From NCBI GenBank assembly GCA_903820285.1, contig CAIJGS010000325.1:1-32382 (forward strand): DNA of 32,382 bases, read 5' to 3'. The position numbers and the translations under genes are program-made. Source of the DNA: an uncultured Verrucomicrobia subdivision 3 bacterium. GTDB lineage: Bacteria; Verrucomicrobiota; Verrucomicrobiia; Limisphaerales; UBA11358. This document shows, piece by piece, positions 262-18,949 of the stretch; position 1 is the stretch's first letter; each line of letters begins with the position of its first letter. The notes under the pieces were generated by a model that searched no databases, had not been told where the DNA came from, and was given only the letters and a program-made list of their open reading frames with translations.

Positions 262-291
262 GATGGTGCGCGATACCGGGTTCGAACCTGT
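262..291 (-). repeat. tRNA-Val 3'-end remnant, distal att-like repeat
   Basis: This 30-nt stretch matches 16337-16366, the T-arm, acceptor 3' strand and CCA of the intact tRNA-Val, at 29 of 30 positions and in the same orientation. The one difference (277 versus 16352) breaks a T-stem pair. Identity stops just before the T-arm, and no anticodon or D-arm follows, so this is not a functional tRNA. A 3'-terminal tRNA fragment in direct orientation at the far end of a DNA block is the usual scar of tyrosine-recombinase integration into a tRNA gene. An old partial tRNA duplication is the alternative. Confidence 0.7.
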
Positions 292-766
292 AATTCCAAA
301 CCCACCCGCATAACATGCTTAAAATGTTGATATTAAAGACGCGTTGACCCGGGTGACAAGATTGCCGTTGTTAGGTATGGCAAATTAACGCAAGCGTCCA
401 GATAGACGGATATGGGTCGGCGCACGAACCAACATGACAATGGTGGGCAATTAAATCTCTTCATACAATGAAACCGAGCTCATGCAGGATATGGAACTTT
501 ATGAGATGGCCAGGCGTTTTTGGGGCTTCACCTAACCTACGAATATGATGCTTGCGGGGCCATGTGCCGGAAGGATGATACGGAGGTGCGGGTGAAGATC
601 CAGCAACTCCTTGCCCATTTAGAGGCCCGCAGTGAACGTTTATTGGCTATTCGGCCTATTATCGTGGTCAAGACGGTTGCGGGAGAGCCGGTGAACATGG
701 CACATAAAGGAACGGCTGCAATGGAAACTCGACCGGTTACGCGGAGGCAACACGGCGCAAGGCATG
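292..766. other. 475-bp gap, no convincing gene
   Basis: This stretch lies between the tRNA remnant and the end of the GH95 gene. The only sizeable plus-strand ORF (520-780) starts at TTG; its first ATG is at 562 and would give about 72 residues, overlapping the GH95 3' end. The peptide has a short helical-looking stretch around KIQQLLAHLEARSE but nothing I recognise, and no ribosome binding site is evident. GCCGTTGTTAG at 364-374 recurs at 16276-16286, close to the other island end. Decayed DNA near an integration boundary is a plausible reading. Confidence 0.4.
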
Positions 767-3181
767 TCAGATCCGGTTAAGCGTCCCATCGAACTTGATA
801 GTTGTTCCTTTCTTTATTTCAACCGTGTTTGCTTCATTCTCATATTTGATGCGACATGATCCGCCGTTCTTTGCCAGAATTTTGGCCGTGATCAGCCGTC
901 CATTTTTCCAAGCCAGGCTGACTTCAAATCCGCCGCGAGCGCACAGCCCGCTCACTGATCCATCCTTCCACGCAGCAGGAAGCGCCGGCAGCAAATGAAT
1001 GGTTCCATTTTCACTTTGAACCAACATTTCAGCGATCGCTGCGGTCGTGCCGAAGTTGCCGTCAATTTGAAACGGCGGGCAGGCGTCGAACAAATTGGGG
1101 TAAACACCACCGCCACCGTCATAGCGAATGTCCATGCCAAAGGCCGGGTTGAGGGCTTTACGCACCATCTGCCAGGCGTGGTTGCCTTCGCCCAGCCGCG
1201 CCCACAGGGCCGCCTTGTAGGCCAGCGACCAGCCCACGCCGTCATCCCCGCGCACTTCCAAAGATTTGCGCGCCGCCTTGGCCAGGTCCGGTGTCGTGTA
1301 CGCAGATATTTCGCCGCCGGGATACAGCCCCCACAAGTGGGATACATGCCGGTGATGCGGTTCGGCTTCCCGATATTCTTCCAGCCATTCCATGATCCGT
1401 CCATCGGAGCCGATTTGTGTCGGGGCGAGGCGCGCGCGTCTGGCGATCAATTCATTGCGGAATTTTTCATCCACCCCCAGCGCTTGCGATGAATCGATGC
1501 ACGCGGTGAACAGATAGCGCACGAGTTGCTGCATCATGGTCGGGCCCATGCAAATGGCCGCTTCCCGGCCATTTTTCATTATAAAATGGTTTTCCGGTGA
1601 GCCCGCAGGGGCGACCACCAGCCATTGATGCGCCGGTTCTTCAATCAACAGGTCGTCATAAAATTGCGCCGCACCTTTTAAAACGGGATATGCCCGGCTG
1701 AGAAAATCGCGGTCGTGGGTGAACAAATAGTGATCATAAAGATGCTGGCACAGCCAACCTGAACCGCACATGGCAGAACCCCAGCTCGCGGATTCGCCCG
1801 GGGAGGTGAATTTCCACGGGTTGGTGATCACATGCGCGACCCAGCCACGGGCGCCATAATAGGCTTGGGCGGTTTTTGCACCTGGCTCCTGGAGCGATTC
1901 GGTTAAAGCGAACAGCGGCGGCGTGAGGTCTGACAGGTTGCACGCCTCTGCCGGCCAATAATTCATTTGCACGTTCACATCCAGGTGCCAGTCGCCGGTC
2001 CAGGGCGTGTGGATCTCCTCTGCCCAGAGGCCTTGCAAATTGGGCGGAAGCCCGCCTGGCCGCGAGGATGAAATCAACAGGTACCGGCCGAAATTAAAAT
2101 ATAGCGCCGCCAGATTCGGATCGCCGCCATGTTCATTCGCCCAAATGACGCGCTGCGACGTCGGCAGCTCGGCCACGGCAATGTCTCCCGGTTTCAGTTG
2201 GAGCGAGACGCGTTGATAGTAGCGTTGATAGTCGGCCACGTGGGCGGCCAGCAGCTGGCGGAACGTTTTGGGGGAAGCCCGGTTCAAATCATCCGCCGTG
2301 GCGGCTTGCGGGTCGTCCAGTTGCCGGCCTGCGAATCCGTGATAATCGGTGGCGGCGGCAATCAGTAGCAGCACTTCGTCCGCGCCGGTGATCTGCAAGG
2401 AATCTCCCCGGGCAGATACTTTGCCGCCATGATTCAGCACCCGGACCCGGGCAGCGTAGTGGAGCCCCTTGCCGTTGGTGCCATTGTCAAGCTGGCCGGT
2501 CATGAGCAATTCATTGCCAGCGGCCTCGATGGTCTCAAAACGTTCCGGCCGGTCAAGTTTGAGCCCAAAAGTAATTTGCCTGGCCCGGTTGGCGGTGAGG
2601 CGCAGCACCATCACTTCATCCGGTTTGCTGGAAAACATTTCGCGCTTAAACGTCACCCCGCCGCGCGTGAACTGCATGCGCGCCACGGCGTCACTGAGGT
2701 CGAGTTCGCGGCGGTACTTTTCCACCGGTGCGTTGGCATCGGCGGGGGACGCAAGGTGTAAATTGCCAAGAACCTGATAGCAGCCATATTGGCCGTCGCC
2801 GGACCCGCCATTGGAGCCGGGGCCTTTGCAGGTAAAATTCGCGTTCACCAATGCTTCGGCTTCGGTGTTTTTTCCGGCGAGCAGCAGGCGGCGGATTTTC
2901 GGCAAAAATTTGCCGGCGTCCGGCCGGTCCGCATCTTGCGGTGAGCCAGACCATAGGGAGCTTTCATTCAGCACAATCCGTTCTTCATCCACGCCGCCGA
3001 ACATCATGGCGCCCAAACGTCCGTTTCCCAGCGGTGACGCTTCCGTGAAGTTTTTTGCGGGCGCATCGAACCAGACCGTTTCCCCAGGCGAAACGCCTTT
3101 GATTTCCGCTCCCTGCAACCTCAAGGTGGTCGCGATGATCCAGATGGAATTGAAAGCAGAAAGGCGTAATTTTTGATTCAT
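767..3181 (-). CDS. GH95 family alpha-L-fucosidase (or alpha-L-galactosidase), secreted
   Basis: This 804-residue protein has the GH95 layout. A hydrophobic N-terminus (about residues 8-24) suggests export. It is followed by the N-terminal beta-domain motif WFDAPAKNFTEASPLGNGRL (37-56), the helical barrel motif DVNVQMNYWPAE (401-412), SPEN (528-531) and QIDGNFG (705-711). By comparison with the known bifidobacterial GH95 1,2-alpha-L-fucosidase, E530 would be the general acid, D707 and N403 would help activate water, and position 401 is Asp where that enzyme has the first Asn of an N-x-N pair. GH95 enzymes invert and remove terminal alpha-1,2-L-fucose; some members prefer alpha-L-galactose. 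It is the last gene of the run, starting 8 bp after the GH97 stop codon, so co-transcription is likely. The family is clear; the exact substrate is not. Confidence 0.9.
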   Translation of the reverse strand: MNQKLRLSAFNSIWIIATTLRLQGAEIKGVSPGETVWFDAPAKNFTEASPLGNGRLGAMMFGGVDEERIVLNESSLWSGSPQDADRPDAGKFLPKIRRLLLAGKNTEAEALVNANFTCKGPGSNGGSGDGQYGCYQVLGNLHLASPADANAPVEKYRRELDLSDAVARMQFTRGGVTFKREMFSSKPDEVMVLRLTANRARQITFGLKLDRPERFETIEAAGNELLMTGQLDNGTNGKGLHYAARVRVLNHGGKVSARGDSLQITGADEVLLLIAAATDYHGFAGRQLDDPQAATADDLNRASPKTFRQLLAAHVADYQRYYQRVSLQLKPGDIAVAELPTSQRVIWANEHGGDPNLAALYFNFGRYLLISSSRPGGLPPNLQGLWAEEIHTPWTGDWHLDVNVQMNYWPAEACNLSDLTPPLFALTESLQEPGAKTAQAYYGARGWVAHVITNPWKFTSPGESASWGSAMCGSGWLCQHLYDHYLFTHDRDFLSRAYPVLKGAAQFYDDLLIEEPAHQWLVVAPAGSPENHFIMKNGREAAICMGPTMMQQLVRYLFTACIDSSQALGVDEKFRNELIARRARLAPTQIGSDGRIMEWLEEYREAEPHHRHVSHLWGLYPGGEISAYTTPDLAKAARKSLEVRGDDGVGWSLAYKAALWARLGEGNHAWQMVRKALNPAFGMDIRYDGGGGVYPNLFDACPPFQIDGNFGTTAAIAEMLVQSENGTIHLLPALPAAWKDGSVSGLCARGGFEVSLAWKNGRLITAKILAKNGGSCRIKYENEANTVEIKKGTTIKFDGTLNRI

Positions 3182-3189
3182 ATCGGTGG

Positions 3190-5121
3190 TTAGCGGTCCA
3201 GTCGCAAGATAAATCCGCCACGGGCCGGGATTTCATGTTTCCAATCGGCGGACAGGTCCAATGAGGCGCCAGCCACCTGCATGCTGGCATCCTGCCCTTC
3301 GATCACAGCGAGGCGTTTGGCGAATTTTTTGAAAGGCGACAGGTCCAAAGTGACTGTTTGCGGCGAGTCCGTTCCGCTGATGCCGGCGATAAACCAGCTG
3401 TTTCCGGCCCGGCGGGCGAAGACGGCCAGTTGCCCGGGTTCCGCGACCAGACAGCGGGTCTCGTCCCAGCGGGCCGGCGCATCGCGGAAAATATTCAACG
3501 CCGCCGGCGGCAGGGACTCGAAGAATTCCGGCTGTTCGGCATAATGGATGATGCCGGAAGTAAAGATCAACGCCGCCGCGAGCTGATGCGCGGCAGTAGT
3601 TGTGCGGGTAAATTTTTTCGGCGAGCACGCCACTGGCGTGAAGTCCATCGGGCCAACCGCATTGCGGGTGAACGGCAATACCGTGTCGAGCTCCGCCGCC
3701 TTCACCGGATAACGCGCCTCGTAAAAATAAGACTCGGCCCCGAGCACGGCTTCACAGCTCAGAAAGTTTGGCCAGGTTCGCTGCCAGCCGCGCGGGATCG
3801 TGCAGCCGTGAAGATTCACCAGCATGTGGCGCGCGGCCGCGTCGCGCAGCAGCGCTTGCTGTGCGGCGATGGCCTCCTGGCGGTCAGAGCACCAGAAATC
3901 CACCTTTACGCCGCGCACGCCGGCATCGGCCAGCTCAGCCAGCTTTCCGGCGCGTGAGCCGGCGTCATAAAAATCCGCGGCATAAGACCACGCCAGCGGG
4001 AGGACGCCGATGGATTGTGCATGGCTGGCGAGGGGTTTGATTCCTGGCGTCCACCAACCGGCATCGAAGAGGGTATATTCCCATCCCATCCTGGCGGCAA
4101 AATCGGTGAATTCGTCAAATCGTTTCGCCGTGGGTGATTCGTCGGGATAGGACCACCAGGCCCAAGATGCCCGGCCGGGCTTGATCCAGGATGTGTCCAT
4201 GATCCGGGATGGCGATGCCAGATCCGTCACCAGGCTTTGCAACGCAATGTCGCCGGCCGACACGCCCAACACAATCACACGCCAGGGCATCGTCCACGGC
4301 AGGGTAAAGCGTGGTTGTGGACCAAACTTGTTCGTATAGCCGCGCGTTGTTTCATCCTCCAGCGGGAAATCGATGCGATAAAGTCCCCCCGTTGAATCTG
4401 GCCCAAGATGGCAGGCGCAATACGATTCATCCGTGCCGGATTCGGTAAGCAACACCCAGATTGACGCCGCTGGCAAATGAAACAGCGCCGGGAAGGCCCA
4501 ACCCCTGGCTTTTTGCCGTGAGTCGGGCGGCGGATCGCCGGGGGTGACATGAAAATAAAAATCTTCATAAGCCGGCGTGTAAGGTCCGGCGGCATGGTAA
4601 GGCTGGAGCCAGCCACGAGCGTCTTGGGGGAGCTTGAAACCGGTCAATTCCTCGTTCACCACAGAGGTTGCGGTATTGGTGCCCGGAAACCGGTAACGAA
4701 AGGCCACGCCTTCGGCGCTGGCGGCAAGATCAATGGCCAATGGCATGCCGTTCCCGTTCACAAAGGTCAACGTGCGAAAGGTGACCAGGTGGTTTATATG
4801 CGGTTGCGGGCCGGTGAATGATTCATATTGCTCGCGCCGGGTTCTGGGCTTGGCCGCATCAGCAAGAGTCAGATGGGTCGAAAAATCCTCATCGTCGCGG
4901 CGCAAACCGAGCGGAGAGGCGGGGAGCACGGCTTGTCCCCCCCGATTAACTTGATAACTCAGCCGGCCTTGATCAAGCGTCACCGAGATGCTGCAGAGGC
5001 CGCCTGGTGACCGAAGGGACCAGACGTCTGAGCCGGTCGCTGCGTGAACTGTCCCCAACGAAGCAAAAAGCAAAATCAGGAAAAAACAAAAACTTGCAGG
5101 CATTTTAAAGTTCTTTGTCAT
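3190..5121 (-). CDS. GH97 family alpha-glycosidase, probably retaining alpha-galactosidase type
   Basis: This 643-residue protein has a signal peptide (MPASFCFFLILLFASLGTVHA from M7, cleavage near residue 27), an N-terminal beta-sandwich, and a central barrel with WAWWSYPDE (320-328), YTLFDAGWW (349-357) and GVKVDFW (404-410). GH97 contains inverting alpha-glucosidases of the SusB type and retaining alpha-galactosidases. The Asp in VKVDFW (D408) sits where the retaining members carry their nucleophile, and E457 (SCEAVLGAE) is a candidate acid/base, so the retaining group is more likely. A C-terminal beta-domain follows, ending in ARGGFILRL. The translation start could be M1 (5121) or M7 (5103); neither has a clear Shine-Dalgarno. 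It lies 161 bp after the GH36 gene and 8 bp before GH95. Confidence 0.88.
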   Translation of the reverse strand: MTKNFKMPASFCFFLILLFASLGTVHAATGSDVWSLRSPGGLCSISVTLDQGRLSYQVNRGGQAVLPASPLGLRRDDEDFSTHLTLADAAKPRTRREQYESFTGPQPHINHLVTFRTLTFVNGNGMPLAIDLAASAEGVAFRYRFPGTNTATSVVNEELTGFKLPQDARGWLQPYHAAGPYTPAYEDFYFHVTPGDPPPDSRQKARGWAFPALFHLPAASIWVLLTESGTDESYCACHLGPDSTGGLYRIDFPLEDETTRGYTNKFGPQPRFTLPWTMPWRVIVLGVSAGDIALQSLVTDLASPSRIMDTSWIKPGRASWAWWSYPDESPTAKRFDEFTDFAARMGWEYTLFDAGWWTPGIKPLASHAQSIGVLPLAWSYAADFYDAGSRAGKLAELADAGVRGVKVDFWCSDRQEAIAAQQALLRDAAARHMLVNLHGCTIPRGWQRTWPNFLSCEAVLGAESYFYEARYPVKAAELDTVLPFTRNAVGPMDFTPVACSPKKFTRTTTAAHQLAAALIFTSGIIHYAEQPEFFESLPPAALNIFRDAPARWDETRCLVAEPGQLAVFARRAGNSWFIAGISGTDSPQTVTLDLSPFKKFAKRLAVIEGQDASMQVAGASLDLSADWKHEIPARGGFILRLDR

Positions 5122-5282
5122 TTGGCAAAGGTATCACATATCGGCTCAATCATCGGAGAATCGGTATCGATATTGCCCGGCCCTGCCGGAGGAGCCAGTC
5201 TTTTTTTCCCTGGCGTTGACCGGCCGATGGCTGCCCAGGCCAACGTTGCCGGCAAACATGTTCGTCGGCGGGCTTCCATGGC

Positions 5283-7481
5283 TTAGCGGGAGCCGGTACC
5301 AAAAGCGTGCAGCGTATCGGCCGCACTGACGGCGGAGGGCGCGAGTTCGATGACGCTGGCTTCAATGGCGTTTGCACACGACGGCCGGACGCCACCGGCC
5401 ATCAGTTCCGCGCCGGTAAGGGAATTCCCTTCCTGGGGAATGGCTTCACGGCCAGGCGCGGGATTTAACTCGCGAACGGTGTAGCGTTGGGCCGGATCCA
5501 AGCCTTGGGGAAACACCGGGCGATTCGCACCCTCCTTCAACTGAAACGCGAACACCACCGCGTGCCGGCGGTCAGGCGAAACAAAATTCAGCGCTCCGCG
5601 AAAATTCTCGTGCGGATCTTCCAGGCGATAAAGATCGCCCAGTTGGGTGACGTCGCGGATCTGCTTGTAAGCAATGATGGCGCCGGCACAAATCGCCTTG
5701 TCTTGCGCGGACAATTTTGTCAGATCGAGATCCATGCCAAAACGTGCGCTCATCGCCACCGCGCAGGCGAAGTGCATGGGGCGATTGCCCCAGTGCGTCA
5801 CGTGGCTGGCCAGGGCCATCACGGGGAAAAAATAGGAGTAATCCCATTGCATCGGCACGCGCAACGTCGGGTCGGTGTTGTCGCTGGGCCAGAACTCGTG
5901 GAAGTATTTCAGCGCTCCATAATCCGCTCGACCGCCGCCGCCGGAACAGAGCATCAATTCCGTCGCCGGAAATGTTTTCGCCGTTTTTTCCATCAACGCA
6001 TAAAGCGCATTGACGTAATCCACCCATAATTCCGACTGGCGGGCGGGCGACAGATAAGGCGAGCCAGGCTGGGTGAGATAGCGGTTGCAATCCCACTTGG
6101 CGTAGGAAATATCGGGGACGCTCAAAATACTTCGAATCATGTTCCACTCCTGCGTCTGGACCTCCGGACGGGTGAGGTCGAGGACGAGTTGATGGCGTTG
6201 CAGTTCCACTTCCCGTTTTGGCTGCCGGATGGCCCAATCGGGATGGGCATCGAACAATTCGCTTTTGGGATTCACCATTTCCGGTTCGATCCAGATGCCA
6301 AAGCGCAGCCCGCGTCTGACCGCTTCCGAGGCCAGGGGCGCCAGACCGTTGGGCAGGCGTTGGCGGTTGGGTTGCCAATCACCCAGGGCGGCGTGGTCAT
6401 TCACGCGCGGATATTTGTTGCCGAACCACCCGTCGTCGAGCAGGAACAGCTCGGTGCCGATCTCCTTGGCGGGATCGTAAAGACCGACGATGCGCTGGAA
6501 ATCAAAGTCAAAACCGGTCGCTTCCCAATTGTTGAGCAAAACCTGTCGGGGCGTGTGGCCGTCGCGCATGCCAAAGTCGCGCGCCCACCGGTGGAATTTC
6601 CGGCTCATGTCCCCCAAACCGTTGGTGCTCCAAACCCATAACATCGTGGGCGTGACAAAACTTTTGCCGGCCGGCAACGAAATGGCTGAGGCAAACGGGT
6701 TGATTCCAGTCAAGGCGCGCACGCCCTGGCCATAGTTGTCAAATTCACATTGAAAACTTCCGGACCAGGCAAGCGAGCCGGCCAGCACGGTGCCATTCGT
6801 TTCATTGCCTTTGCCGCCCAGCGACAAAATGAATGATGGGTTGCGGAACTGTGACGCCCGCACCCCCAGCTTGGAATCGAGGACCTTGGTGCCCGGCGTG
6901 ATCTTTTCCGTAATCGGCGACAACATTTCCTTCGCCCAATCCCCGAAAAAATGCGTCAAATACACATCTCCACCCAGCAACAGCGATGACGATTCCACCC
7001 GTTGCAATGTGACCGCGCTTTTCTCCGCATGATTCAGTTCGATCCATTGCTCGATCACATCTTCATCGAGGTGCGCTTTAAAACAAAGCGTGACATAAAA
7101 TGGATAGGCTGAATCGTGCAGGCGGATGCGGGTGGCGGTGATGTCAGCCGTCTCGTTGGTTTGCGTCAGGCTGTCAAACACCAGCACCGTCGAAGTGTTG
7201 CCGTCGGCGTGCGTCACTTCCAAGGCGGGTTCCCACACGTAACCATCGCCGGCTTGGGGATAAAATTCGTCGTCACGCACCGGCACGGCCGGGCTGGACC
7301 CCGCCTGGACGGGTTGCTGGTAAAGCCGGCCATCTGCGCCGACTTGGAGGGTGACTGCAAGGCTTTTGGTTTTAATGGCAAACGACTCGCGCACCGCCAC
7401 AGTGGCGGGTTCAGCCGTTGAATTCGCCTGAAACCAGGCTGCCAATAACAGGGTGGCAGTAAGGGTAAGTGTGAGTTTCAT
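5283..7481 (-). CDS. GH36 alpha-galactosidase, secreted
   Basis: This 732-residue protein has a signal peptide (MKLTLTLTATLLLAAWFQA), an N-terminal beta-supersandwich, and a TIM barrel with LLNNWEATGFDFD (315-327), FLLDDGWFG (346-354) and GIWIEPEMVNP (395-405). The nucleophile motif YAKWDCNRY places D464, and the acid/base motif WPSDNTD places D534. Their 70-residue spacing equals that of characterised GH36 alpha-galactosidases of the AgaA/RafA type. Such enzymes release terminal alpha-1,6-, alpha-1,3- or alpha-1,4-linked galactose with retention. Most bacterial GH36 enzymes are cytoplasmic, so an export signal fits breakdown outside the cytoplasm. It begins 35 bp after the SGNH-like gene. 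The family and catalytic residues are secure; linkage preference cannot be read. Confidence 0.93.
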   Translation of the reverse strand: MKLTLTLTATLLLAAWFQANSTAEPATVAVRESFAIKTKSLAVTLQVGADGRLYQQPVQAGSSPAVPVRDDEFYPQAGDGYVWEPALEVTHADGNTSTVLVFDSLTQTNETADITATRIRLHDSAYPFYVTLCFKAHLDEDVIEQWIELNHAEKSAVTLQRVESSSLLLGGDVYLTHFFGDWAKEMLSPITEKITPGTKVLDSKLGVRASQFRNPSFILSLGGKGNETNGTVLAGSLAWSGSFQCEFDNYGQGVRALTGINPFASAISLPAGKSFVTPTMLWVWSTNGLGDMSRKFHRWARDFGMRDGHTPRQVLLNNWEATGFDFDFQRIVGLYDPAKEIGTELFLLDDGWFGNKYPRVNDHAALGDWQPNRQRLPNGLAPLASEAVRRGLRFGIWIEPEMVNPKSELFDAHPDWAIRQPKREVELQRHQLVLDLTRPEVQTQEWNMIRSILSVPDISYAKWDCNRYLTQPGSPYLSPARQSELWVDYVNALYALMEKTAKTFPATELMLCSGGGGRADYGALKYFHEFWPSDNTDPTLRVPMQWDYSYFFPVMALASHVTHWGNRPMHFACAVAMSARFGMDLDLTKLSAQDKAICAGAIIAYKQIRDVTQLGDLYRLEDPHENFRGALNFVSPDRRHAVVFAFQLKEGANRPVFPQGLDPAQRYTVRELNPAPGREAIPQEGNSLTGAELMAGGVRPSCANAIEASVIELAPSAVSAADTLHAFGTGSR

Positions 7482-7516
7482 GCTCGCGTCGGCTTTCAGA
7501 AGTAATAGTTAGGTTT

Positions 7517-7987
7517 TCAAGGCTTCGGCAATCTGGCGACCGGCACCGCTGGCAACGCGATCCCGCAGTCATTGCAATGGACATTATCGCTGCGGCATTC
7601 CGGATGGCCAATGGCAATGGCATACAGATCATCCACCGGAACTCGGTTCGCTTGCACAAATTTTAGCGGCCGGTTGTTGCGTGCCGCAACGGACGCGGCC
7701 ATGGCTTCCTGCGGCGGGGCGTTCGTGGGGAAAATTTTCAAATGAATAGCGTCAAAATTCATTGAACCTAGCACCGTTTCAATCCGCTTGAGCAAGACCG
7801 GCTCCGCCATGAAAGCCGAACTGGAGAGCCGCGCCACATAAGCGCGGGCGGCCAGTTTCATTTCCACTTCGGGACAATGGCCCCACTCGATGGATTCACG
7901 CCCCGAGGATGGCATGGCGGGCGAATCCGCGTGCACGGCGGCGGCCGGCATCGTAAACAGTGTGGCGGAGACGAACGCTTTGGTCAT
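7517..7987 (-). CDS. small exported protein resembling a truncated SGNH hydrolase
   Basis: The ORF track starts at 8116, but the Met at 7987 is better: it is followed by an export-like sequence (MTKAFVSATLFTMPAAAVHA), leaves a 40-bp gap to the pseudopilin gene, and has GGGGA about 13 bases upstream. The 156-residue product ends with VAARNN, VPVDDLYAIA and SDNVHCND. This resembles the C-terminal third of bacterial SGNH hydrolases, where a block-V DxxH supplies the catalytic Asp and His. No GDS(L) serine motif and no clear block II or III are visible, and the middle (FDAIHLKIFPTNAPP) looks like a junction left by an internal deletion. A catalytically dead remnant is likely. A small unknown secreted protein cannot be excluded. 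Confidence 0.5.
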   Translation of the reverse strand: MTKAFVSATLFTMPAAAVHADSPAMPSSGRESIEWGHCPEVEMKLAARAYVARLSSSAFMAEPVLLKRIETVLGSMNFDAIHLKIFPTNAPPQEAMAASVAARNNRPLKFVQANRVPVDDLYAIAIGHPECRSDNVHCNDCGIALPAVPVARLPKP

Positions 7988-8027
7988 GCTGATGATTCCC
8001 CATTGGCGGCTGAACAACTGCTGCCAG

Positions 8028-8816
8028 TCAGTTGGGGCGCGTCGCCGGTGGTTGCCATTGCGCGTGCCAATAATAATTCCACAGATTCTGCAGCGGTACC
8101 GGTTCGACATGGCCATCGGTGAAACTCATATTCAGCCTGCCGGGCAACGGTGTGGCGGGAGGCACCACGCGCGGGGCGGCACCGGGCGGCATTTTCCCGT
8201 GCCGGGCAATGCAAATGCGGGGCATGCCCGAAGCCGTCGAACTGCCCAGCGGGTCATACAAATTCCGCGCCGGCGTGTCAGTTTCCATGACCCAAAAATT
8301 AATCCAGGCGGCATCCAAGAACATCGGGGTCAGGACGGGCTGTTTCACCTGCATGTCGCTGGCAAAATAATGTGGGTCCGAGGAATTTGGGCCGGTGAGC
8401 CAGTCATTGTAGCCATAACTGGAAGCATATTGCGGGGTGGACAATGCCCAATGCCACGCGGAATCCGCCTTGCCGGACGTGTTTGCGTTTAATGGATTGC
8501 CCGTATCAGGGGCCACCGGACAAAACAGGACATTGGTTGCGTTGCCGTAGTAAGCCAGCATGGCGCCCATCCAATCGCCCTGGCTCAGACTTGGATTGTT
8601 TGCGTCAATCGGCCCGACATAACGCTTTTGTTCGCCGACATACATCACGTTCGCCAAGGCCAGTTGCTTGAGATTGCTGACGCAGAGGATTTGATGCGCC
8701 CGCAGTTTCGCGCTCGACAATGCCGGCAACAGCATGGCTGCCAGAATGGCGATGATGGCGATGACCACCAACAGTTCAATCAAAGTGAAACCGCCTGCAT
8801 CTCGACGCTTGCTCAT
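8028..8816 (-). CDS. type II secretion/type IV pilin-like pseudopilin with H-x-DG C-terminus
   Basis: This 262-residue protein starts MSKRRDAGG followed by [20 protein letters not shown], a class III prepilin signal. Prepilin peptidase would cut after G9 and leave Glu at mature position 5. The hydrophobic helix is followed by an extracellular domain ending in [20 protein letters not shown], the DGH(V)-type C-terminus of the large Verrucomicrobiota/Planctomycetota pseudopilin families. These proteins occur in many copies per genome, often next to catabolic genes, and their roles are largely unknown. A fibre or a secretion-pseudopilus tip for enzymes or adhesins is a reasonable guess. It sits between the LamG protein and the SGNH-like gene, within the same run of minus-strand genes. 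Confidence 0.9.
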
Positions 8817-8842
8817 AAAACAATCTGGCTAAACTTTTACTT

Positions 8843-8868
8843 GGCGGGGCGGTTTTGGCCGCCCCGCC
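8843..8868 (-). terminator. GC-rich hairpin between LamG and pseudopilin genes
   Basis: GGCGGGGCGG and CCGCCCCGCC form a perfect 10-bp stem with a 6-nt loop in the 70-bp gap. On the minus strand it is followed by AAGTAAAAGTTT rather than a continuous T run. It therefore looks like an attenuating or mRNA-stabilising hairpin after the LamG gene more than a full intrinsic terminator. Confidence 0.55.
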
Positions 8869-8886
8869 GATGTCAATCACACCGCA

Positions 8887-11796
8887 TTATTGCTTGATCC
8901 GGTAAAACCGCCCGGGTGCTCCACCGGTGACCGAATTGGTCACCCTAAAGGCGCCACTGCCATCATAGCTGTTTGTGGACCAAATGACCCAGTTTGTCAG
9001 CGGCGTCAGCAGGTTGGTCGTCGTGAGCACATAGAAGGTGCCGCCGGCGCTTCCGCCGCTGCCGCTGACGATGATGTTGCTGCCGATTACCACAGCATTC
9101 GTGATGAGCGGCCCGGAGGTTGAAACCACACTCAGCACACCGCTGCTCAACTGGCTAATGTTCCAGGCCAAACCATCGCCGGGCGTCGCGGGACTGATGT
9201 TGGTGAAGCTGCCTGAAATCGAGCCGCCGGCGGTGAGAATCTGAAACGAGTTGCCGTTCGCGAGCGGAGTGCCGCTGATATTGGCCAAAGACAAGGTTCC
9301 GCCGCAGCTCAAGTTGCCACCGGCACGCACGCTGTCATTGGCTCCCGAACCGTTTAGTTTGATTACCGTGATTCCGTTCAAGGTGATGTTGCCCGTGGCC
9401 GTGACGGCACCGGTCTGGCTGGCACCCGCGGTGATGCTGATCGTTGTATTCGTGCCAGCGGGCGCAATGGTGGCTCCCGCTGATTCAACCAGGTTGCCAG
9501 CGACCGCCCCGATGCCGCCCAGCGTCTGGCCGGCCGCCAGTGTCAGCGTGGAGTCCGACCGGCTGCTGGCGTCCAGGTGTGTTGAGGTGGGATTGCTGCC
9601 GCCGAAAAAAATCAGCGAACTTTGCGAAATTGAGCCATTGCCGGTCAGTTTCACCTGCGGCCCGTCATTGATGATTGTCGGCCCGGCATAGGTGTTGGCA
9701 GAGGAGAACACAAAGGCATGATTCCAATAGTCCAGCAATATGCCGCCCGGCCCGCTGACCAAATTCGTGTAAACCAGGTTATGGTCACCCAGAATACAGT
9801 GAACCACGCCGTTCAACACGATGGCGCTATTGATGGGTTCATCGGTTGAACTGCTGCCCCAGCTTCGCCACTGGGCATTCTGATCCAAAGTGATGGTGCT
9901 ACCGGTGAACGCCGCTGGAGCGGTCCACAGGTCAACCGTCGCGCCGCTCATGATGTGGAAGCTGCCGTTCCAGCCGCCACTATAGAAACTAAGTTCACAG
10001 TTCGGACTGACGGTGAAAACGGTTGCGGGATTTTGAAAACCAGCGTCCATGGATTTGCTGCCGAAATTTCCGTTTGTCAGCGAAATTCCCAACACGGAGG
10101 CGCCGACCGTCACACTATTCCATTCACCGTAAGCCGCGCCATTGCCCCAGTCGAGGGTGAGATAGTGCGCGCCGTTGACTTGTGATCCGGCGGCCAAATC
10201 CCAGCGGGCGCTGCCGGCCAGGGTCGCGTTATCAGTCATGGTGAGTTTGACGGATTCGTTTGGATAATCGCTGTAAGAATTAATCAGCACTCCCTGCCCG
10301 CTTGAACCGGTTCCCGCAATGGAAATCGGCGTAATATTGTTAAACTGCCCGCCCCCCAGATCCATGGTCGCGTTGTTGGTAATCGCAATCGAAGCCGCTG
10401 CGCTGAAACAATTGTTCCCGGCATAAACCAAGCCGCCTTTGATGGCAACCGTTCCCGCAAATCCGGACGGAGTAAACAAGTTCAACGTGCTGGAGCCATC
10501 CTTGATCAACGAACCTGAGCCACTGAGGCCACCGGGCCCATTCAAAGTGTAGCTGTTCACGCTGGCAGTAATATTAACCACGCTCGGAACCACGGCATTG
10601 CCGAGGGCAATTGTGGTGGGAACGCCGGGCGTATCATCAAACAGCACCGCATCGCCGGGATTAAAAGCGGTTTGCTGGCTGTTCGCCAAATTGATCCAAT
10701 TCGCAGTTGCGTTATCCCATGCCCCATTATTCCCGTTCGCACTCCATTCGAGGTTGCGGGGGGTGGAAACCGTCAGCCCCGCCACGGAGCTGTTGGTCGT
10801 ACCATTGGCATTGCCGACCACGACGCTGTAATTTCCAGCATTGGTCAACTGCAGATTGCTTAATGCAAGCGTGGCATTCGTCTTGCCAGGCAATGGGGTG
10901 CTGCCGTAATACCATTGGTTGGTCATTGGCAACGCGCTGACCGCCGTGACTGTCAACGTCACCGAGCCACCCACATAACTTGGCTGCGATTGCGGCTGGA
11001 CGTTGATGATCGGGGCGGCACTGGCCGCCGGCACACCAACCAGGCCGACAAAATAGTGGTTCAGGACCTGTGCGGCCGTCAAACCGTTCGTGTAGATCGC
11101 CACTTCCGTAATATTTCCATTGAAATGGCGGCCATTACCGGCAGACGTGCCGTTACCAATTGCCCACGGATCGGAGAAACTGATCGCCCCCCCGGAGTCC
11201 GATTTGCTCTGGATCAGAACGCCATTGATATACAAACTGGTGTTGGTGCCGTTGTTGGCCAAAACCACATGTGTCCAGTTGGTCGCCTGCTGCCCGCCGG
11301 TAATCTGGGCATTGCCAAGATTCACATCGTAAATTGCCCCATATGGCCCGTCCACCCGGATGTAGGTTTCCTGATAAGTGCTGGAATCATAGCCCTTGGC
11401 AATGATATCCCCGAAAGACGTGGAATCAGCCGGCTGCACCCAGGCTTCCAAAGTCGCCGCGCCAGCAAGGCTCGTCAAACTGGACGACCCGCTCAAATCC
11501 ACGGACGTGTCATAGCCGTCAAAAGAAACCGCGTTGGTGATATAGGCGGACGGACCGGTGGAATTGTTGTAACCGGAAAAAATGTTCACATAAGCCCCGT
11601 CATTACCATTGCCGGTCAAGTCCGTCGCCGTGCCACTGGTGTCCACTGCCAGGTTCAACGGGTAAAAAGCCAGCGGGTTGTCGGCCAGCACGGTACCATT
11701 ATAATCCGCACGGGCCATTGAGGCGGTCGCCAGCACCGCGGCTGCGACGACAGCGAAGCAGGCAATAGGCTGGCGGGCAGAGTTTTTTATTTTCAT
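8887..11796 (-). CDS. large secreted LamG/Ig-like/beta-strand-repeat protein
   Basis: This 969-residue protein begins with a signal peptide (to about ATASMARA, residue 30). A LamG/concanavalin-like domain follows (about 45-250: LEAWVQP, NWTHVVLANNGT, LYINGVLI, GNITEVAIYTNGL). Then come an Ig-like domain (about 258-345: PQSQPSYVGGSVTLTVTA, NQWYYGSTPLPG, NAGNYSVVV) and long parallel-beta repeats of the autotransporter-associated type (about 350-890: GPGGLSGSGSLIKDG, TIINDGPQ, TLGGIGAVAG). The last ~75 residues (TFYVLTTTNLLTPLTNWVIW) resemble the C-terminus of the alpha-galactosidase at 13534-15816. LamG and Ig modules bind glycans or mediate adhesion, so a role in substrate binding at the cell surface is inferred. 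It is probably the first gene of the six-gene run ending with GH95. Confidence 0.85.
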   Translation of the reverse strand: MKIKNSARQPIACFAVVAAAVLATASMARADYNGTVLADNPLAFYPLNLAVDTSGTATDLTGNGNDGAYVNIFSGYNNSTGPSAYITNAVSFDGYDTSVDLSGSSSLTSLAGAATLEAWVQPADSTSFGDIIAKGYDSSTYQETYIRVDGPYGAIYDVNLGNAQITGGQQATNWTHVVLANNGTNTSLYINGVLIQSKSDSGGAISFSDPWAIGNGTSAGNGRHFNGNITEVAIYTNGLTAAQVLNHYFVGLVGVPAASAAPIINVQPQSQPSYVGGSVTLTVTAVSALPMTNQWYYGSTPLPGKTNATLALSNLQLTNAGNYSVVVGNANGTTNSSVAGLTVSTPRNLEWSANGNNGAWDNATANWINLANSQQTAFNPGDAVLFDDTPGVPTTIALGNAVVPSVVNITASVNSYTLNGPGGLSGSGSLIKDGSSTLNLFTPSGFAGTVAIKGGLVYAGNNCFSAAASIAITNNATMDLGGGQFNNITPISIAGTGSSGQGVLINSYSDYPNESVKLTMTDNATLAGSARWDLAAGSQVNGAHYLTLDWGNGAAYGEWNSVTVGASVLGISLTNGNFGSKSMDAGFQNPATVFTVSPNCELSFYSGGWNGSFHIMSGATVDLWTAPAAFTGSTITLDQNAQWRSWGSSSTDEPINSAIVLNGVVHCILGDHNLVYTNLVSGPGGILLDYWNHAFVFSSANTYAGPTIINDGPQVKLTGNGSISQSSLIFFGGSNPTSTHLDASSRSDSTLTLAAGQTLGGIGAVAGNLVESAGATIAPAGTNTTISITAGASQTGAVTATGNITLNGITVIKLNGSGANDSVRAGGNLSCGGTLSLANISGTPLANGNSFQILTAGGSISGSFTNISPATPGDGLAWNISQLSSGVLSVVSTSGPLITNAVVIGSNIIVSGSGGSAGGTFYVLTTTNLLTPLTNWVIWSTNSYDGSGAFRVTNSVTGGAPGRFYRIKQ

Positions 11797-11840
11797 GATT
11801 TATTCGGGGTTTGAGTTGGTTGAGTTAGGGAAGGTTGGAG

Positions 11841-11869
11841 ATTAGATGTCACAATTGTTCGCAGGACAA
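11841..11869 (-). promoter_or_regulatory. candidate sigma70 promoter for the LamG-to-GH95 gene run
   Basis: On the minus strand TTGTCC (11864-11869) is followed after 17 bp by TCTAAT (11841-11846), a 5-of-6 match to the -10 consensus. It would give a leader of about 38 nt before the LamG start at 11796. The spacer contains the perfect palindrome ACAATTGT (11851-11858), which could be part of an operator for the neighbouring XylR-type regulator. Confidence 0.45.
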
Positions 11870-12237
11870 CGCATAATGTCCGGGCCATGATTTTCGAGCT
11901 CTGGTTGAAAGTGGTCAGACGGTAATTTTCTCATACGACGTTTTCTAATGGAATGGATAAGCCGCCGGTCCGGATGGATAATTGCCTTTTTGTCCACCGC
12001 CATTACCCATCAGACGCCGCTGCCAATTTGATTTGGAACAACTATGGCAGACGTCGCAAAGGGATTTGGTGCGGCAAATTGCATGGTGTTATTTGCTTAT
12101 AGAATACCACTGTAATAACAGGCATCCAATGGACTTTTTGGGAAAAGTATTGACCTTTTTCGTCACGCGGAACCATGGGGTCTTCCGCCGCCCGGCGGAA
12201 AAAGCCGGTCGGATCAGCGGCGGGGGACGGTCCGATA
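11870..12237. other. non-coding part of regulator-LamG interval
   Basis: These 368 bp lie between the end of the regulator gene and the candidate LamG promoter. ORFs here (for example 11982-12287 plus) have no recognisable product. The stretch contains a second promoter-like sequence at 12101-12129. No tRNA, riboswitch core or strong terminator hairpin was recognised. Confidence 0.5.
12101..12129 (-). promoter_or_regulatory. second candidate promoter with palindromic spacer
   Basis: On the minus strand TTGGAT (12124-12129), a 17-bp spacer and TATTCT (12101-12106) form a sigma70-like pair. The spacer holds CTGTTATTACAG, an inverted repeat with CTGT/ACAG arms. Transcription would run into the LamG gene with a leader of about 300 nt. 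It could be an alternative or regulated start; the promoter at 11841-11869 is closer and has the better -10. Confidence 0.3.
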
Positions 12238-13482
12238 TTATAACGCCGGCGGGAGCGGGTTTCGACGGCCCGGAAGTCGGTCTTTGAGGTTTTGGAGCAG
12301 CGCATGTGCGCGGAATTCCGACGGCGTCATCCCGACGCGTTTCTTGAAAATGCGGCTCAGGTATTCCGCGTGATCCAGTCCGATTTTTTCCGCAATGATC
12401 GGCAGGGAAAAATCGGTCTCAATCAGCAGCTGCTTGGCGCGGTTCAGGCGCACCCGCAAAATTTCATCCTTGGGCGAGCAGTTCATCAGCGTGATAAAAC
12501 GGCGGTCCAGTGTGCTGCGCGACATCGGCACCGCGCGCAGCACGTCGCTGACATCAATGCCTTCGCACGCGTGTTCACGGATGAACCGGGTCACGGCGGC
12601 GATTTGGCGGTCTTCCACCACGAGCACCTCCGTCGAACGCCGGGTCACGACACATTTTGGCAGGATAAAGATTTTTTCGGGTAAGGGCTTTTCGCCCCGC
12701 ATCATGCGCTCGAGCAGGGCGGCTGTTTCGTAACCGATCCGCTCCGTATCCGGCACCACGCTGGAAATGGGCGGATCTGACAAGGAGCAAAGCACTTCAT
12801 CGTTGTCCACACCAATGACGGCCACATCGTCCGGCACATTCACGCAGAGCGCGCGGCAAGTATTCAGGATCTGCTGGCCGCGCACGTCATTGCAGGCCAT
12901 CACGCCCACCGGTTTGGGCAATTGCCTGATCCAGCGCGCAACCGCCGCGTCGTCTTTCAAGCCTTCGATATCATAACCTGCCGTTTTGACTTTGCCGGAC
13001 CGGCCGGCGTTCTTGAAAACATGGCATTGGTAACCGGCGTTGCCGACACTGCGAACGAACCCCTCGAGTCGCTCGTCGGAATAATCAGCCCCGTTGAAAC
13101 CGCAAAAGGCGAAGTGCCGGAAGCCGCGTTCCTTGAAATGTTCAAAGCACATTTCGCCGGATGCGGCGTTGTCGGTCAGGATGGTCGGCATGCCGGCCGT
13201 ATCTTTTACTTTCCGCAAATACACGACCGGCACCCGCAGCCGTTGCACCAAACCGACGATGTTGTTGTTATCCAGCCGGGTAATGATGCCCTCGCCTTTC
13301 CACTTCTTGAACCATGCCGGCGTTTCGTCGCGCAAGCTCAACTCCTGGTAAAAGATGGACCAAGCCTGGTGTTCACGGACATATTTTGCCACGCCGGCCA
13401 TGATGCCGCGGCCGTAAGCGCGTGACGATTCCACGAGCAATGCAACGCGCGGGCGGTTGGCGCTCGTGACAATTTTTTTCAT
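12238..13482 (-). CDS. XylR/AraC-family regulator with LacI-type sugar-sensing domain
   Basis: The chosen start is the Met at 13482 (MKKIVTSANRPRVALLVESS), which matches how XylR-type regulators begin; the ORF-track start at 13518 adds 12 unlikely residues. The 414-residue product has a periplasmic-binding-protein-like sensor (about 12-280: RAYGRGIMAGV, ILTDNAASGEM, GVMACNDVRG, DDVAVIGVDNDE) and a C-terminal AraC-type double helix-turn-helix (about 300-392: VLRAVPMSRSTLDRRF, RLNRAKQLLIET, IAEKIGLDHAEYLSRIFKKRVGMTPSEFR). Members bind a monosaccharide and activate nearby catabolic genes. It lies 51 bp downstream of the alpha-galactosidase gene and upstream of the LamG gene, so it probably controls one or both gene groups. 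Its sugar ligand cannot be read from sequence. Confidence 0.9.
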   Translation of the reverse strand: MKKIVTSANRPRVALLVESSRAYGRGIMAGVAKYVREHQAWSIFYQELSLRDETPAWFKKWKGEGIITRLDNNNIVGLVQRLRVPVVYLRKVKDTAGMPTILTDNAASGEMCFEHFKERGFRHFAFCGFNGADYSDERLEGFVRSVGNAGYQCHVFKNAGRSGKVKTAGYDIEGLKDDAAVARWIRQLPKPVGVMACNDVRGQQILNTCRALCVNVPDDVAVIGVDNDEVLCSLSDPPISSVVPDTERIGYETAALLERMMRGEKPLPEKIFILPKCVVTRRSTEVLVVEDRQIAAVTRFIREHACEGIDVSDVLRAVPMSRSTLDRRFITLMNCSPKDEILRVRLNRAKQLLIETDFSLPIIAEKIGLDHAEYLSRIFKKRVGMTPSEFRAHALLQNLKDRLPGRRNPLPPAL

Positions 13483-13533
13483 GATTCCAAAGTTAAATGA
13501 CGGCCGGCCGCCTGGCAACTGCGTTTGGGAGGC

Positions 13534-15816
13534 TCAAGGAATCCGCAGCCCTTGCCAGTTCACCGGGCGGTTTTGAATTGCGTTGGTGTATTGAAAGTTT
13601 CCGTTTGCATCGAAGGAATTCGTGGCCAGCGCCACCCAGTTCGAAAGCGGAACGGCAAGGTTGCTTGAAGCCACCACTTGATACGTCCAGCCGGAAATTC
13701 CGTTGCTGCCACGCCCAATGAAATTGCCATTCCCATCCCCCGCTGCGCTGGTAAATCTCGGCAATGGGGGTGCGCCGGCCAGATTGAGTTGAAATAATTT
13801 CGCCTGTTTGGCGTTAAGGGAAACCGCGAAGGAGTTCGAAACTGTCATCGTGCTGCCGTCCCATAAATTTGTCGCGATAAAAACCCGGTCGGGCAAAGCG
13901 GCGGCGGCCAGTTTTACCGTGACGTTGGTTGGCGATGCAGTGTAATTGAAGACGGCAATGTTCCAACTTCTGCCATCCTGTCGCACCAAGATGGTTGCCG
14001 CACCCGTACCGGTGGCGCCATCCACGGGTCGGAATGACCGGCCGTTTCGCGCCACCGCGTTAATGGCCGCGTTGGTCAAACAATGTTGCGCCAGGCTGAT
14101 ACTGGCGGCATTGGTGAGAATGCTGCCGTTTAAATATAAACCGGCCACGGCGCAGTTAATCAGCCGGCTTTGGATTTCATTCGGATCGGGGCCGTTGTCA
14201 AAAACCATCAAGTCAGGATCATTAAAAGCATACAAGCGGCCGCCGATCCACCAGCCCAGTGATACGGCATTCATCGTGTAAGCCGTGTTGCCGATGAATG
14301 ACGTCGTCGCATCGCAAGCTATCCGGCGGCTGTGCCCATATTGATAAGGAAAAACCGGGGCGATGGATTCGCTGAGAAACATGCTCCCGCCCAGCTTGCC
14401 TTGGAGATACTGCATTCCCTGGTTGTAGGCCTCGATGCCGGTCGTCACGTTCGTATCATAATGCCTGCCTTCCAGGGCGCCGTGCGACAGGAAATCCAGT
14501 TTCACATAATCAAATCCCCAGTTGGTGAACCAATAACCGTAATAGTCCACCAAGCCGCGGGCGCCGGGGTGGGTGGGGTCGATCGCCAGTGCGCCATCGT
14601 TGGCAATGACGTTGCCGCTCGCGTCGCGCAGCAAAATATCGCTGTACCGGTAGAGTGAAAAATTTGGCGGATTGCCGACCGGCACCCAATTGTTGGTGGC
14701 GTCGGTCACGCTGCCCCAATACACGAACGGCCCAAAGTAAATGCCGGCCTTCTGGCCGTTGTTGTGGCAATGGACGACAAAATTCCGGAGCAGCGTGCCG
14801 CCGCCGTCCGTCCACAGATTGTCCCAATACGAATCCAAATTCACATACGCCGTGCCGCCATTGGTGAAGCCGCGTGACTGCAAGTTCGTATGAATCGAAT
14901 CCGATACGGCGAGGGCGGCGTTGTAACTGATATGGTTCTGATAATTCGTGACGCCCCAGCTGTTCCAGCCAAAGGGCACGCCATTGGTCCAGACCAGCGG
15001 TCCCGTCACGCGCAGATTGGCTTCGGCGAATTTTTCCATTACGATTCGCCAATCATTGCCGTATCCGACAAATATCTGCGGGGATGAAATTGTGCCGCCG
15101 GAAACAAACCCGTGCGGCATCACGTCCCAAGTCCAATAGGATGTCACGCCGCCGAACACGTTCAATTTGTCCAGTTTGGAATTTGAACCCGACCAGTAAA
15201 TGCCGGTCTTCCAAGTGTCATGAGTCACTGAGCCAACCACCAGGCCGGTGCGTGAAACGTTGTCGTAAAAAGCGCCAACCTCATGGCCGACATCCGAGCC
15301 GTTGATGCTTTCCGAGTTGTAACTGACGAAGTGGTCATTGTCGAAAGGCACGAACAGCGCGCGATTGTCATTGGTAACGCCAAGGTTCACTCCGCCGCCC
15401 GCATCCACCACGACTGGCCCCATCCAGTTCGCGCTCGCACCGCTGCCGGTCATTGTGACGCGGGTGAGAAAACTGTCGCTTTCTGCGAGCGTGAAGGTTT
15501 GGGCCATGTCGGGCAGTCCCGCCGCATGAGCGATGACGGTGGCTTGGTTGCTGTTTGCCTGCGACCACGTGCGATTGCTGAAATCGATACCCTTGCAATA
15601 TCCGCTGCGCAATCCGACGCCGCTGTAAAAGGCGGAGATGACCGGCGTATTTTTCCAAAAAAAAGCGGTTGTTCCCGCGTTTAAATCATATTCAAGCCGC
15701 ACGTTGGCGTTTGACATCACCAAGAGATGGCCCGCCTGCCAGAAGGAGGCTGCGTCCGCCCGCGGCCGGAACGCCAATAAAATCAGGCCGGCGGTGATGC
15801 CGCTTTTGACACGCAT
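13534..15816 (-). CDS. clan GH-D alpha-galactosidase (GH36/GH27-like), secreted
   Basis: The ORF track starts at 16056, but the first 80 codons look non-coding and a signal peptide begins at M81 (MRVKSGITAGLILLAFRPRADA), so the start is set at 15816, giving 760 residues. After an N-terminal beta-domain comes a barrel with GWNSWG (283-288), VNLDSYWDN (325-333), GIYFGPFVYWG (358-368), DYVKLDFLSHG (436-446; D441 nucleophile), RIACDA (498-503; D502 acid/base) and FNDPDLMVF (531-539). These are hallmarks of clan GH-D melibiase-type enzymes, which release alpha-linked galactose. A C-terminal beta-domain is followed by a ~75-residue module (687-760) like that ending the LamG protein. It is the most upstream gene of the locus. 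Galactosidase is the best guess; an alpha-N-acetylgalactosaminidase-like activity is possible. Confidence 0.85.
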   Translation of the reverse strand: MRVKSGITAGLILLAFRPRADAASFWQAGHLLVMSNANVRLEYDLNAGTTAFFWKNTPVISAFYSGVGLRSGYCKGIDFSNRTWSQANSNQATVIAHAAGLPDMAQTFTLAESDSFLTRVTMTGSGASANWMGPVVVDAGGGVNLGVTNDNRALFVPFDNDHFVSYNSESINGSDVGHEVGAFYDNVSRTGLVVGSVTHDTWKTGIYWSGSNSKLDKLNVFGGVTSYWTWDVMPHGFVSGGTISSPQIFVGYGNDWRIVMEKFAEANLRVTGPLVWTNGVPFGWNSWGVTNYQNHISYNAALAVSDSIHTNLQSRGFTNGGTAYVNLDSYWDNLWTDGGGTLLRNFVVHCHNNGQKAGIYFGPFVYWGSVTDATNNWVPVGNPPNFSLYRYSDILLRDASGNVIANDGALAIDPTHPGARGLVDYYGYWFTNWGFDYVKLDFLSHGALEGRHYDTNVTTGIEAYNQGMQYLQGKLGGSMFLSESIAPVFPYQYGHSRRIACDATTSFIGNTAYTMNAVSLGWWIGGRLYAFNDPDLMVFDNGPDPNEIQSRLINCAVAGLYLNGSILTNAASISLAQHCLTNAAINAVARNGRSFRPVDGATGTGAATILVRQDGRSWNIAVFNYTASPTNVTVKLAAAALPDRVFIATNLWDGSTMTVSNSFAVSLNAKQAKLFQLNLAGAPPLPRFTSAAGDGNGNFIGRGSNGISGWTYQVVASSNLAVPLSNWVALATNSFDANGNFQYTNAIQNRPVNWQGLRIP

Positions 15817-16338
15817 TTTTAGTTTTTCACACAGTGGGATACTTCCTGGCTGATGGTGTAATGGGGAGCGATAGTTCCGCAACGACTTTTTCCAGCCGCA
15901 ACCGCCAGGGGCGCACCCCGCCAATGCCTCCTGACAGGTGGCATCAGGCTGCCGGACTATGCCAATCATCGGCGGGACCGCGGCTGAGTCAGCCGCAGAA
16001 GAGCGCGTACGCCTGATCGAACGGGGCTGCTTCGGAGTGCTGGAAGAATGCGGCACGAACGAATCACACCGGCTGAGATTGAGCGCCCCTTGAAGGCGAC
16101 GACGGGAGGTGTAGCGGTGACGGTCGCCAATTTGGCGAGGGGCATCGGACTGATCCTTGTTTTAGTTGGAACCCAAATTGTTGGAAGCACCGAGAATCAG
16201 AGCCAAATTTGCAGGTCCAAATACATGACATCGTTGACACGTTTACACACGGTCCGCCGGGTTGAAATCCGTTGAGCCGTTGTTAGTTTTGTTGTTAGCT
16301 TTTTGGAGAAATCCGCTTAAGCAGATGATTAAAAGGGA
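15817..16338. other. intergenic stretch between alpha-galactosidase gene and tRNA-Val
   Basis: This 522-bp gap holds the upstream region of the alpha-galactosidase gene and the island end next to the tRNA 3' terminus. ORFs across it show no recognisable protein. Notable pieces are the inverted repeat at 15925-15943 and two direct copies of GTTGTTAG (16279-16286 and 16291-16298). No clear sigma70 promoter for the alpha-galactosidase gene was found. Confidence 0.5.
15925..15943 (-). promoter_or_regulatory. candidate operator: 19-bp inverted repeat upstream of alpha-galactosidase gene
   Basis: TGCCTCCT and AGGTGGCA flank a 3-nt centre with one mismatch between the arms. The site lies about 110 bp upstream of the start at 15816. 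Its size suits a dimeric regulator such as the XylR-type protein encoded next door, but the same sequence was not found at the LamG promoter, so the link is unproven. Confidence 0.3.
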
Positions 16339-16366
16339 TGGTGCGCGATACAGGGTTCGAACCTGT
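16337..16366 (-). repeat. tRNA-proximal att-like repeat (3' end of tRNA-Val)
   Basis: This is the counterpart of 262-291 in the same orientation, with 29 of 30 bases identical. It comprises the last bases of the tRNA T-arm, the 3' acceptor strand, the discriminator, CCA and two downstream bases. Integration here would leave the tRNA intact, as observed. Confidence 0.65.
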
Positions 16367-16413
16367 GACCCCTACCGTGTCAAGGTAATGCTCTACCACT
16401 GAGCTAACCGCGC
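16339..16413 (-). tRNA. tRNA-Val (anticodon GAC)
   Basis: The minus strand folds into a complete 75-nt cloverleaf with encoded CCA. The acceptor stem is GCGCGGT/ATCGCGC, the D-stem GCTC/GAGC, the anticodon stem TTACC/GGTAG with loop TTGACAC (anticodon GAC), the variable loop GGGTC, and the T-arm ACAGG-TTCGAAC-CCTGT; the discriminator is A. The anticodon reads valine codons GUC and GUU. Its 3' end faces the glycan-degradation block, and its last 28 nt recur at 264-291. Confidence 0.96.
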
Positions 16414-16654
16414 TACCGGTGGAAGAAAACGCCTGCGGACAGGCATTCATTCGCTGACCTCGGCGGCGGGGTGGGAGCACCTCGCCAACACCGGCAGTCA
16501 GTTGGTCAAAAATAGAGATAACCCCATTGGGTGGCAAGACATTTTGGCGGGGAATTGCGGACGGCGAGGCGATAACAGTCCGGTCGGGCGCAACGCCGGG
16601 AAACGGGTTCCGGTTTGTCCTGCATAGATTGCGGACATAATGTTTTTTGTCCGC
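16414..16654. other. non-coding stretch upstream of first PEP-CTERM gene
   Basis: The ORF 16295-16714 (minus) runs through the tRNA and is an artefact of it. I see no gene here. The notable element is a perfect 7-bp inverted repeat, GCGGACA (16631-16637) and TGTCCGC (16648-16654) with a 10-nt loop, ending exactly where the -35 box of the next promoter begins. Neither strand shows a terminator-like T run, so a protein-binding site is more likely than a terminator. Confidence 0.4.
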
Positions 16655-16683
16655 TTGACTATTACAAGGTCGGGTTTTAGTCT
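16655..16683 (+). promoter_or_regulatory. candidate sigma70 promoter of first PEP-CTERM gene
   Basis: TTGACT (16655-16660), a 17-bp spacer and TAGTCT (16678-16683) lie about 49 bp before the ATG at 16732. A hairpin-forming inverted repeat abuts the -35 box. Confidence 0.5.
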
Positions 16684-16731
16684 GCATCAAGTTCACTAAT
16701 TGCACCAACGACATTTGCCTTTACCCTGCCC

Positions 16732-17649: not shown

Positions 17650-17672
17650 TTCAATTAACCGGTCTTTTCTTT

Positions 17673-17708
17673 CCGCCGCAAACCCGTGGGTTGGCGGCGC
17701 ATTTTTTT
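17673..17708 (+). terminator. intrinsic terminator after first PEP-CTERM gene
   Basis: CGCCGCAAACCC and GGGTTGGCGGCG pair almost fully around a very short loop and are followed by CATTTTTTT. This is a strong rho-independent terminator 24 bp after the stop codon. Confidence 0.88.
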
Positions 17709-17831: not shown

Positions 17832-17861
17832 GCGGGATAAGTTGGTATTGTCGTCCGAAAT

Positions 17862-18931: not shown

Positions 18932-18949
18932 ATCCTCCCCATTATTTAA

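Follow-up and report, generated by a model that had tools for sequence, protein, structure and literature searches.

tDNA-targeted genomic islands have been mapped by Islander, which requires an integrase ORF (PMC4383910). The locus described here lies on a stretch of 32,382 bp (the window), which is one whole contig (C325) of a draft genome of 5.25 Mb that comprises 395 contigs and is 91% complete. It shares with the Islander islands an intact tRNA gene, a displaced and correctly oriented 3' fragment, a 16-kb interval, integrase remains adjoining the fragment, and an attachment site in the T-arm region. The 16.1 kb between its ends, as given by their coordinates, fall inside the 2-200 kb length of the Islander definition. 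It differs from these islands in that no integrase ORF has survived, leaving a 14-codon stub with a stop. Since the window contains no integrase ORF, the Islander integrase filter would reject this island. This kind of layout is already known, and the window holds a decayed member of it. With respect to gene content, polysaccharide-utilization loci occur on integrative conjugative elements of Bacteroidetes. As in those elements, glycoside hydrolases and a regulator are located between the ends of an integrative element, but SusC/SusD-type or conjugation genes are missing among the families found in the window, and both the lineage and the integration module are different. The closest GH95 matches and the gene content suggest Verrucomicrobiota as the taxon of the window. 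A literature search for glycan-degradation islands of this type in Verrucomicrobia gave no direct precedent among the papers listed. We consider it very probable that the locus is a decayed tRNA-Val integrative element that was inserted by a tyrosine recombinase, with the glycan genes most likely representing its cargo and the whole now probably immobile.

The single tRNA gene of the window, tRNA-Val(GAC), was located by ARAGORN at positions 16339-16413 on the minus strand, with its CCA encoded. An earlier note on this DNA had pointed out that positions 262-291 equal positions 16337-16366 at 29 of 30 bases in the same orientation, and that the second copy is the 3' end of an intact tRNA-Val(GAC) facing the block. 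Both observations were confirmed: the match has an E value of 2.2e-7 in a BLAST search within its own 5.2-Mb genome, and a structural scan of the whole window for CCA-ended tRNA 3' ends gave scores at 264-291 and 16339-16366 only. The displaced copy (262-291, minus strand) consists of the 28-nt 3' end of tRNA-Val(GAC) (264-291; T-arm, acceptor, and CCA), oriented as in the intact gene, and two further nucleotides. Its lone mismatch changes CCTGT to CCGGT and disrupts one T-stem pair, as expected for a non-functional remnant. With the 3' end of the intact tRNA pointing into the block, the side on which the 3' fragment lies is the correct one. We assign the fragment as the far half of the attachment site (attR), based on this identity, on homology to the intact element of relative G057 that begins at position 263, and on the same 28-nt structure at related integrase loci (see below). 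The intact gene represents the regenerated target on the attL side. The possibility that the fragment derives from a non-coding RNA or has a tmRNA-like source was also considered and rejected: the Rfam match was only at chance level, and ARAGORN reported nothing.

The sequence following the displaced CCA, TCTTTTCC, is similar to what comes after intact tRNA-Val genes in several relatives, and the present tRNA-Val(GAC) is followed by element sequence. These two features lend modest support to the integration model. The uninserted site would join a tRNA-Val gene ending in ...CGCGCACCA to TCTTTTCCTGCCGGC, which in the window lies beyond the fragment. When the flanks were compared with the tRNA-Val loci of many genomes of the same genus and the same order, neither flank of the window was conserved there. 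To the right of the tRNA, the window encodes an NHL protein, two ice-binding-like adhesins, TypA, a glycogen debranching enzyme, an SPFH protein, and NfeD. Little flanking sequence is available on the left, where about 120 bp lie between the fragment and a multicopy insertion sequence, the end of which fills positions 1-140. The sequence TTACCCATTACAAACGTCGAGGAACC is common to eight contig ends (the window and seven others), which differ from one another thereafter. Both ends of the insertion sequence read alike outward, that is, as terminal inverted repeats. On the minus strand, a transposase-like frame begins near position 80. No insertion-sequence family could be assigned from the short end peptides.

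A search of the genus with positions 140-420 of the window yielded one strong match, G057:C51:6469-6635, the DNA of this Val-subfamily element end being 79% identical to window positions 263-417. The homology starts at the tRNA end, not earlier, and runs on beyond the fragment. In G057, the intact gene for a tyrosine recombinase of 413 aa (PF00589) begins 97 nt beyond a tRNA-Val 3' fragment. In the window, alignment to this protein identifies an integrase relic on the plus strand (377-418): the frame begins at 377 as MAN*RKRPDRRIWV, is interrupted by a stop at codon 4, and the homology ceases near 418 after the start codon and about 14 codons. The other approximately 400 integrase codons were not found between the repeats. 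The earlier note had regarded the lack of an integrase there as unusual. An intact integrase ORF is indeed not present between the repeats, but the 5' stub is, its remainder having been deleted. Judged from the alignment, the integrase gene has been deleted rather than lacking from the start. No homologue of the G057 integrase was found elsewhere in this genome at E 1e-20, so that rescue in trans by a close relative looks unlikely, as far as a draft of 91% completeness allows this conclusion. With its integrase cut to a 14-codon stub, the island is probably immobile. The stretch between the stub and the first glycan gene (419-766) has no family match, nor did Pfam give any for the short open stretch near 530-770.

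The Val subfamily of these elements is characterized by the arm motif GTTGTTAG-N4-GTTGTTAG. Within the window, GTTGTTAG occurs at positions 367, 16279, and 16291 and nowhere else. The two right-hand copies form an arm-type repeat pair, GTTGTTAGTTTTGTTGTTAG (16279-16298, plus strand), which represents the tRNA-side end of the element and lies 40 nt inward from the tRNA end. These 20 nt are identical to the integrase-proximal arm upstream of the G054 integrase and match the G057 arm at 22 of 23 positions. The right-hand pair did not match the arms of other subfamilies, and such an arm pair was absent downstream of the 35 other tRNA-Val genes examined. According to the alignment with the intact relative, the copy at 367-374 (plus strand) is one surviving unit of the integrase-proximal arm repeat: the relative has two units 12 bp apart, and a 12-bp alignment gap corresponds to the unit lost in the window. 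Because the left arm is down to one unit, the comparison of left and right arms inside the window alone is weak, with 7 of 300 interior controls reaching the same score. In all four complete islands described below, the short repeats near one end have a match near the other end that is oriented alike; the left and right arm sequences of G016 agree at 22 of 23 positions. Their position and pairing suggest that the arm repeats are bound by the integrase.

Homologues of the G057 integrase were found in 23 of the 49 genus genomes searched. All 30 integrase loci examined carry a 28-nt CCA-ended tRNA 3' end upstream of the start codon, at a distance of 73-195 nt and mostly of 96-121 nt; the background for such ends is 0.011 per 500 nt, real tRNAs included. 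Four complete islands share the layout of the window, three at tRNA-Gly (G020:C83, 16.3 kb; G016:C36, 8.4 kb; G055:C42, 5 kb) and one at tRNA-Glu (G019:C360, 10.8 kb), and their fragments are identical to their own intact tRNA at 27-28 of 28 positions. In a quick tree, integrase clades largely track the tRNA target and the three Val-targeting integrases cluster together. No relatives of the integrase were found in viral contigs. With the intact family of the genus (G057:C51, G054:C202, and the four complete islands), the window shares the fragment, the arm repeats, the integrase start, the spacing, and the layout with the tRNA. The features of the Val subfamily are recognizable in the fragment at 264-291 just upstream of the stub start at 377 and in the arms at 367 and 16279-16298, while the functional integrase that belongs to the definition of this subfamily is missing, its gene being deleted. 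The intact family differs from the window in that it keeps its integrase and carries defence, AAA/DUF3987 or unknown genes, whereas the window combines a lost integrase with glycan genes. Cargo of intact relatives includes a LamG protein in G055 and AAA or DUF3987 proteins in G057 and G019. Of the backbone genes known from intact relatives, none is left in the window.

Three loci that came up in this comparison deserve mention. The complete 16.3-kb tRNA-Gly island (L187; G020:C83, 570-16939) contains cas1, a Cas_NE0113-type gene, HsdM, a PD-(D/E)XK nuclease, and a Fic-like/AlbA protein, and looks like a defence island. At L092 (G001:C17, 87-13560), 13.4 kb lie between a 51-bp tRNA-Val fragment, which differs from the tRNA 3' end of its own host, and an intact tRNA-Val(GAC), and a divergent integrase-like ORF adjoins the fragment; this is a second kind of element that has the same layout and uses the same tRNA. 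At L095 (G014:C87, 9700-15362), an integrase is located on the 5' side of tRNA-Val(GAC), with a 37-nt fragment of the 5' half of the tRNA 5.5 kb upstream, and this element seems to have integrated towards the tRNA 5' half.

The main genes between the repeats are all encoded on the minus strand. They comprise a GH95 glycoside hydrolase (767-3181; PF22124, 7.2e-172), a GH97 glycoside hydrolase (3190-5121; PF10566) with an 81% identical orthologue in G063, a GH36 alpha-galactosidase-type hydrolase (5283-7481; PF02065, 2.3e-101), a pseudopilin-like protein with a prepilin N-terminal motif (8028-8816; PF07963), a LamG/Ig-domain protein (8887-11796; PF13385), a XylR/AraC-type sugar-responsive regulator (12238-13518; PF13377 and PF12833), and an 840-aa protein without a named family (13534-16056). 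The earlier note had spoken of alpha-galactosidases in the plural, but the GH36 gene is the one clear alpha-galactosidase-type gene here. The GH97 protein is only distantly similar to the model of retaining alpha-galactosidases (193.7 bits, cut-off 800). In other members of the genus, homologues of the 840-aa protein adjoin this regulator or GH36. The protein has no Pfam or NCBIfam match. Its PDB matches are weak (E 0.045 and above) and concern chains of alpha-L-fucosidase and alpha-galactosidase, so that it may represent a glycoside hydrolase not yet described. Its C-terminal approximately 70 residues are also found in the LamG protein (8887-9111). This domain, which has no Pfam name, occurs in many proteins per genome across the genus and possibly serves sorting or anchoring. 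The 840-aa protein was rejected as an island marker, since its C-terminal domain is present in many genus proteins and most matches are uninformative.

A very similar gene block is found in G063:C213, where GH95, GH97, GH36, and the regulator (79-89% amino-acid identity) as well as the LamG protein (57%) have the same order and orientation as in the window. It is flanked by a glmS-like gene and a sugar-transporter/AraC region; neither a tRNA nor such an integrase is present within the stretch examined, and the pseudopilin and the 840-aa protein are missing from this block. Orthologues of GH97 have a patchy distribution, with 9 of 49 genomes carrying one at E 1e-60, and GH36-GH97-GH95 in the same order also occur in other genomes at 68-72%. 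The occurrence of the block at several addresses, in G063 and other genomes, indicates that the glycan operon is a self-contained unit, which in the window lies inside an element. An unrelated case is probably presented by L067 (G011:C120, 12778-15204), where a different GH95 (40% identity) is located about 1 kb downstream of tRNA-Val(GAC), with no detectable tRNA fragment or arm repeats; we regard this as probably a coincidence.

GC content and tetranucleotide frequencies of the block are within or near the range of other contigs and not anomalous. Composition, which the earlier note had proposed as a check on the insertion, failed to separate the block from the host. Among the 4-kb bins, the one that deviates most (16-20 kb) has hardly any overlap with the island. 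Host-like composition is compatible with a donor from the same lineage or with an insertion that took place long ago. The region with the most deviant tetranucleotide composition of the window, 16414-20000, is located to the right of the tRNA and encodes the NHL protein and the two ice-binding-like adhesins; homologues of the NHL protein are rare, occurring in 6 of the 49 genus genomes.

An alternative history, which we judge rather unlikely, is that a small element unrelated to glycans occupied the tRNA, and that the glycan block was inserted later by recombination or by an insertion sequence, perhaps when the integrase and the backbone genes were lost. The syntenic G063 block at another address without tRNA or integrase, the different cargo of the intact relatives, the lack of a typical backbone gene in the window, and the insertion sequence 120 bp outside the fragment would all be in line with such a sequence of events. 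No insertion-sequence ends and no second fragments were found between the repeats, however, and the LamG protein is also present in one intact small island of the family, that of G055. It is considerably less probable that two tandem elements of the same subfamily collapsed at tRNA-Val, leaving ends that stem from different elements. Tandem tDNA islands are known (PMC4383910), and the ends of one element are only partly intact here, but a third tRNA fragment or a second integrase stub is missing between the ends.

We consider it highly improbable that the repeat arose by chance, belongs to an unrelated conserved sequence, or is an assembly artefact. The draft genome is split into 395 contigs and this contig begins inside a repeat, which would make an artefact conceivable, but the match at 29 of 30 bases (E 2e-7) is accompanied by an integrase stub and by element-specific arms at both ends, and an imperfect repeat of 30 bp is a poor cause of misassembly.

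Integration by a tyrosine recombinase at the tRNA-Val 3' end, as the earlier note had proposed, is backed by the element-end sequences at both boundaries and by the intact relatives, and we favor it as the explanation for the layout. The integrase, a tyrosine recombinase, would have inserted an element of the genus-wide family at the T-arm/acceptor 3' end of tRNA-Val(GAC), and would have bound paired GTTGTTAG-type arm sites near both ends of the element. The present 3' end of the tRNA would have been supplied by the element, and the original 28-nt end displaced by 16 kb to a position just upstream of the integrase gene. Later losses would have removed one arm unit and all of the integrase gene beyond its first ~14 codons. 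This would have left the glycan-degradation genes, which most likely arrived as cargo, as a probably immobile block. We infer this order of events from the present arrangement. All cargo may have arrived in one step, but G063 has the block at a non-tRNA site and the composition does not set it apart from the host. The lack of a conserved flank in relatives, the host-like composition, the one-unit left arm, the loss of all backbone genes, and the element-free G063 block count against the favored explanation.

These results show that a 14-codon stub and the end repeats suffice to place an island in its element family even when the integrase is gone, and they name intact relatives on which the mechanism can be tested. 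They also point to one plausible route by which sugar-degradation operons change address in a poorly cultured lineage, the operon being located in a tRNA-Val element here and at a tRNA-free site in a relative. An integrase family with clades that largely follow the target tRNA provides a natural set for studying how tyrosine recombinases switch between tRNA targets. On a wider scale, we tentatively suggest, as a possibility still short of even odds, that small integrative elements of tRNA 3' ends form an undescribed family in circulation within this probably verrucomicrobial genus, with integrase clades tied to particular tRNAs, and that this family may spread complete carbohydrate-degradation operons and defence genes, which the loss of the integrase would then fix in the host.
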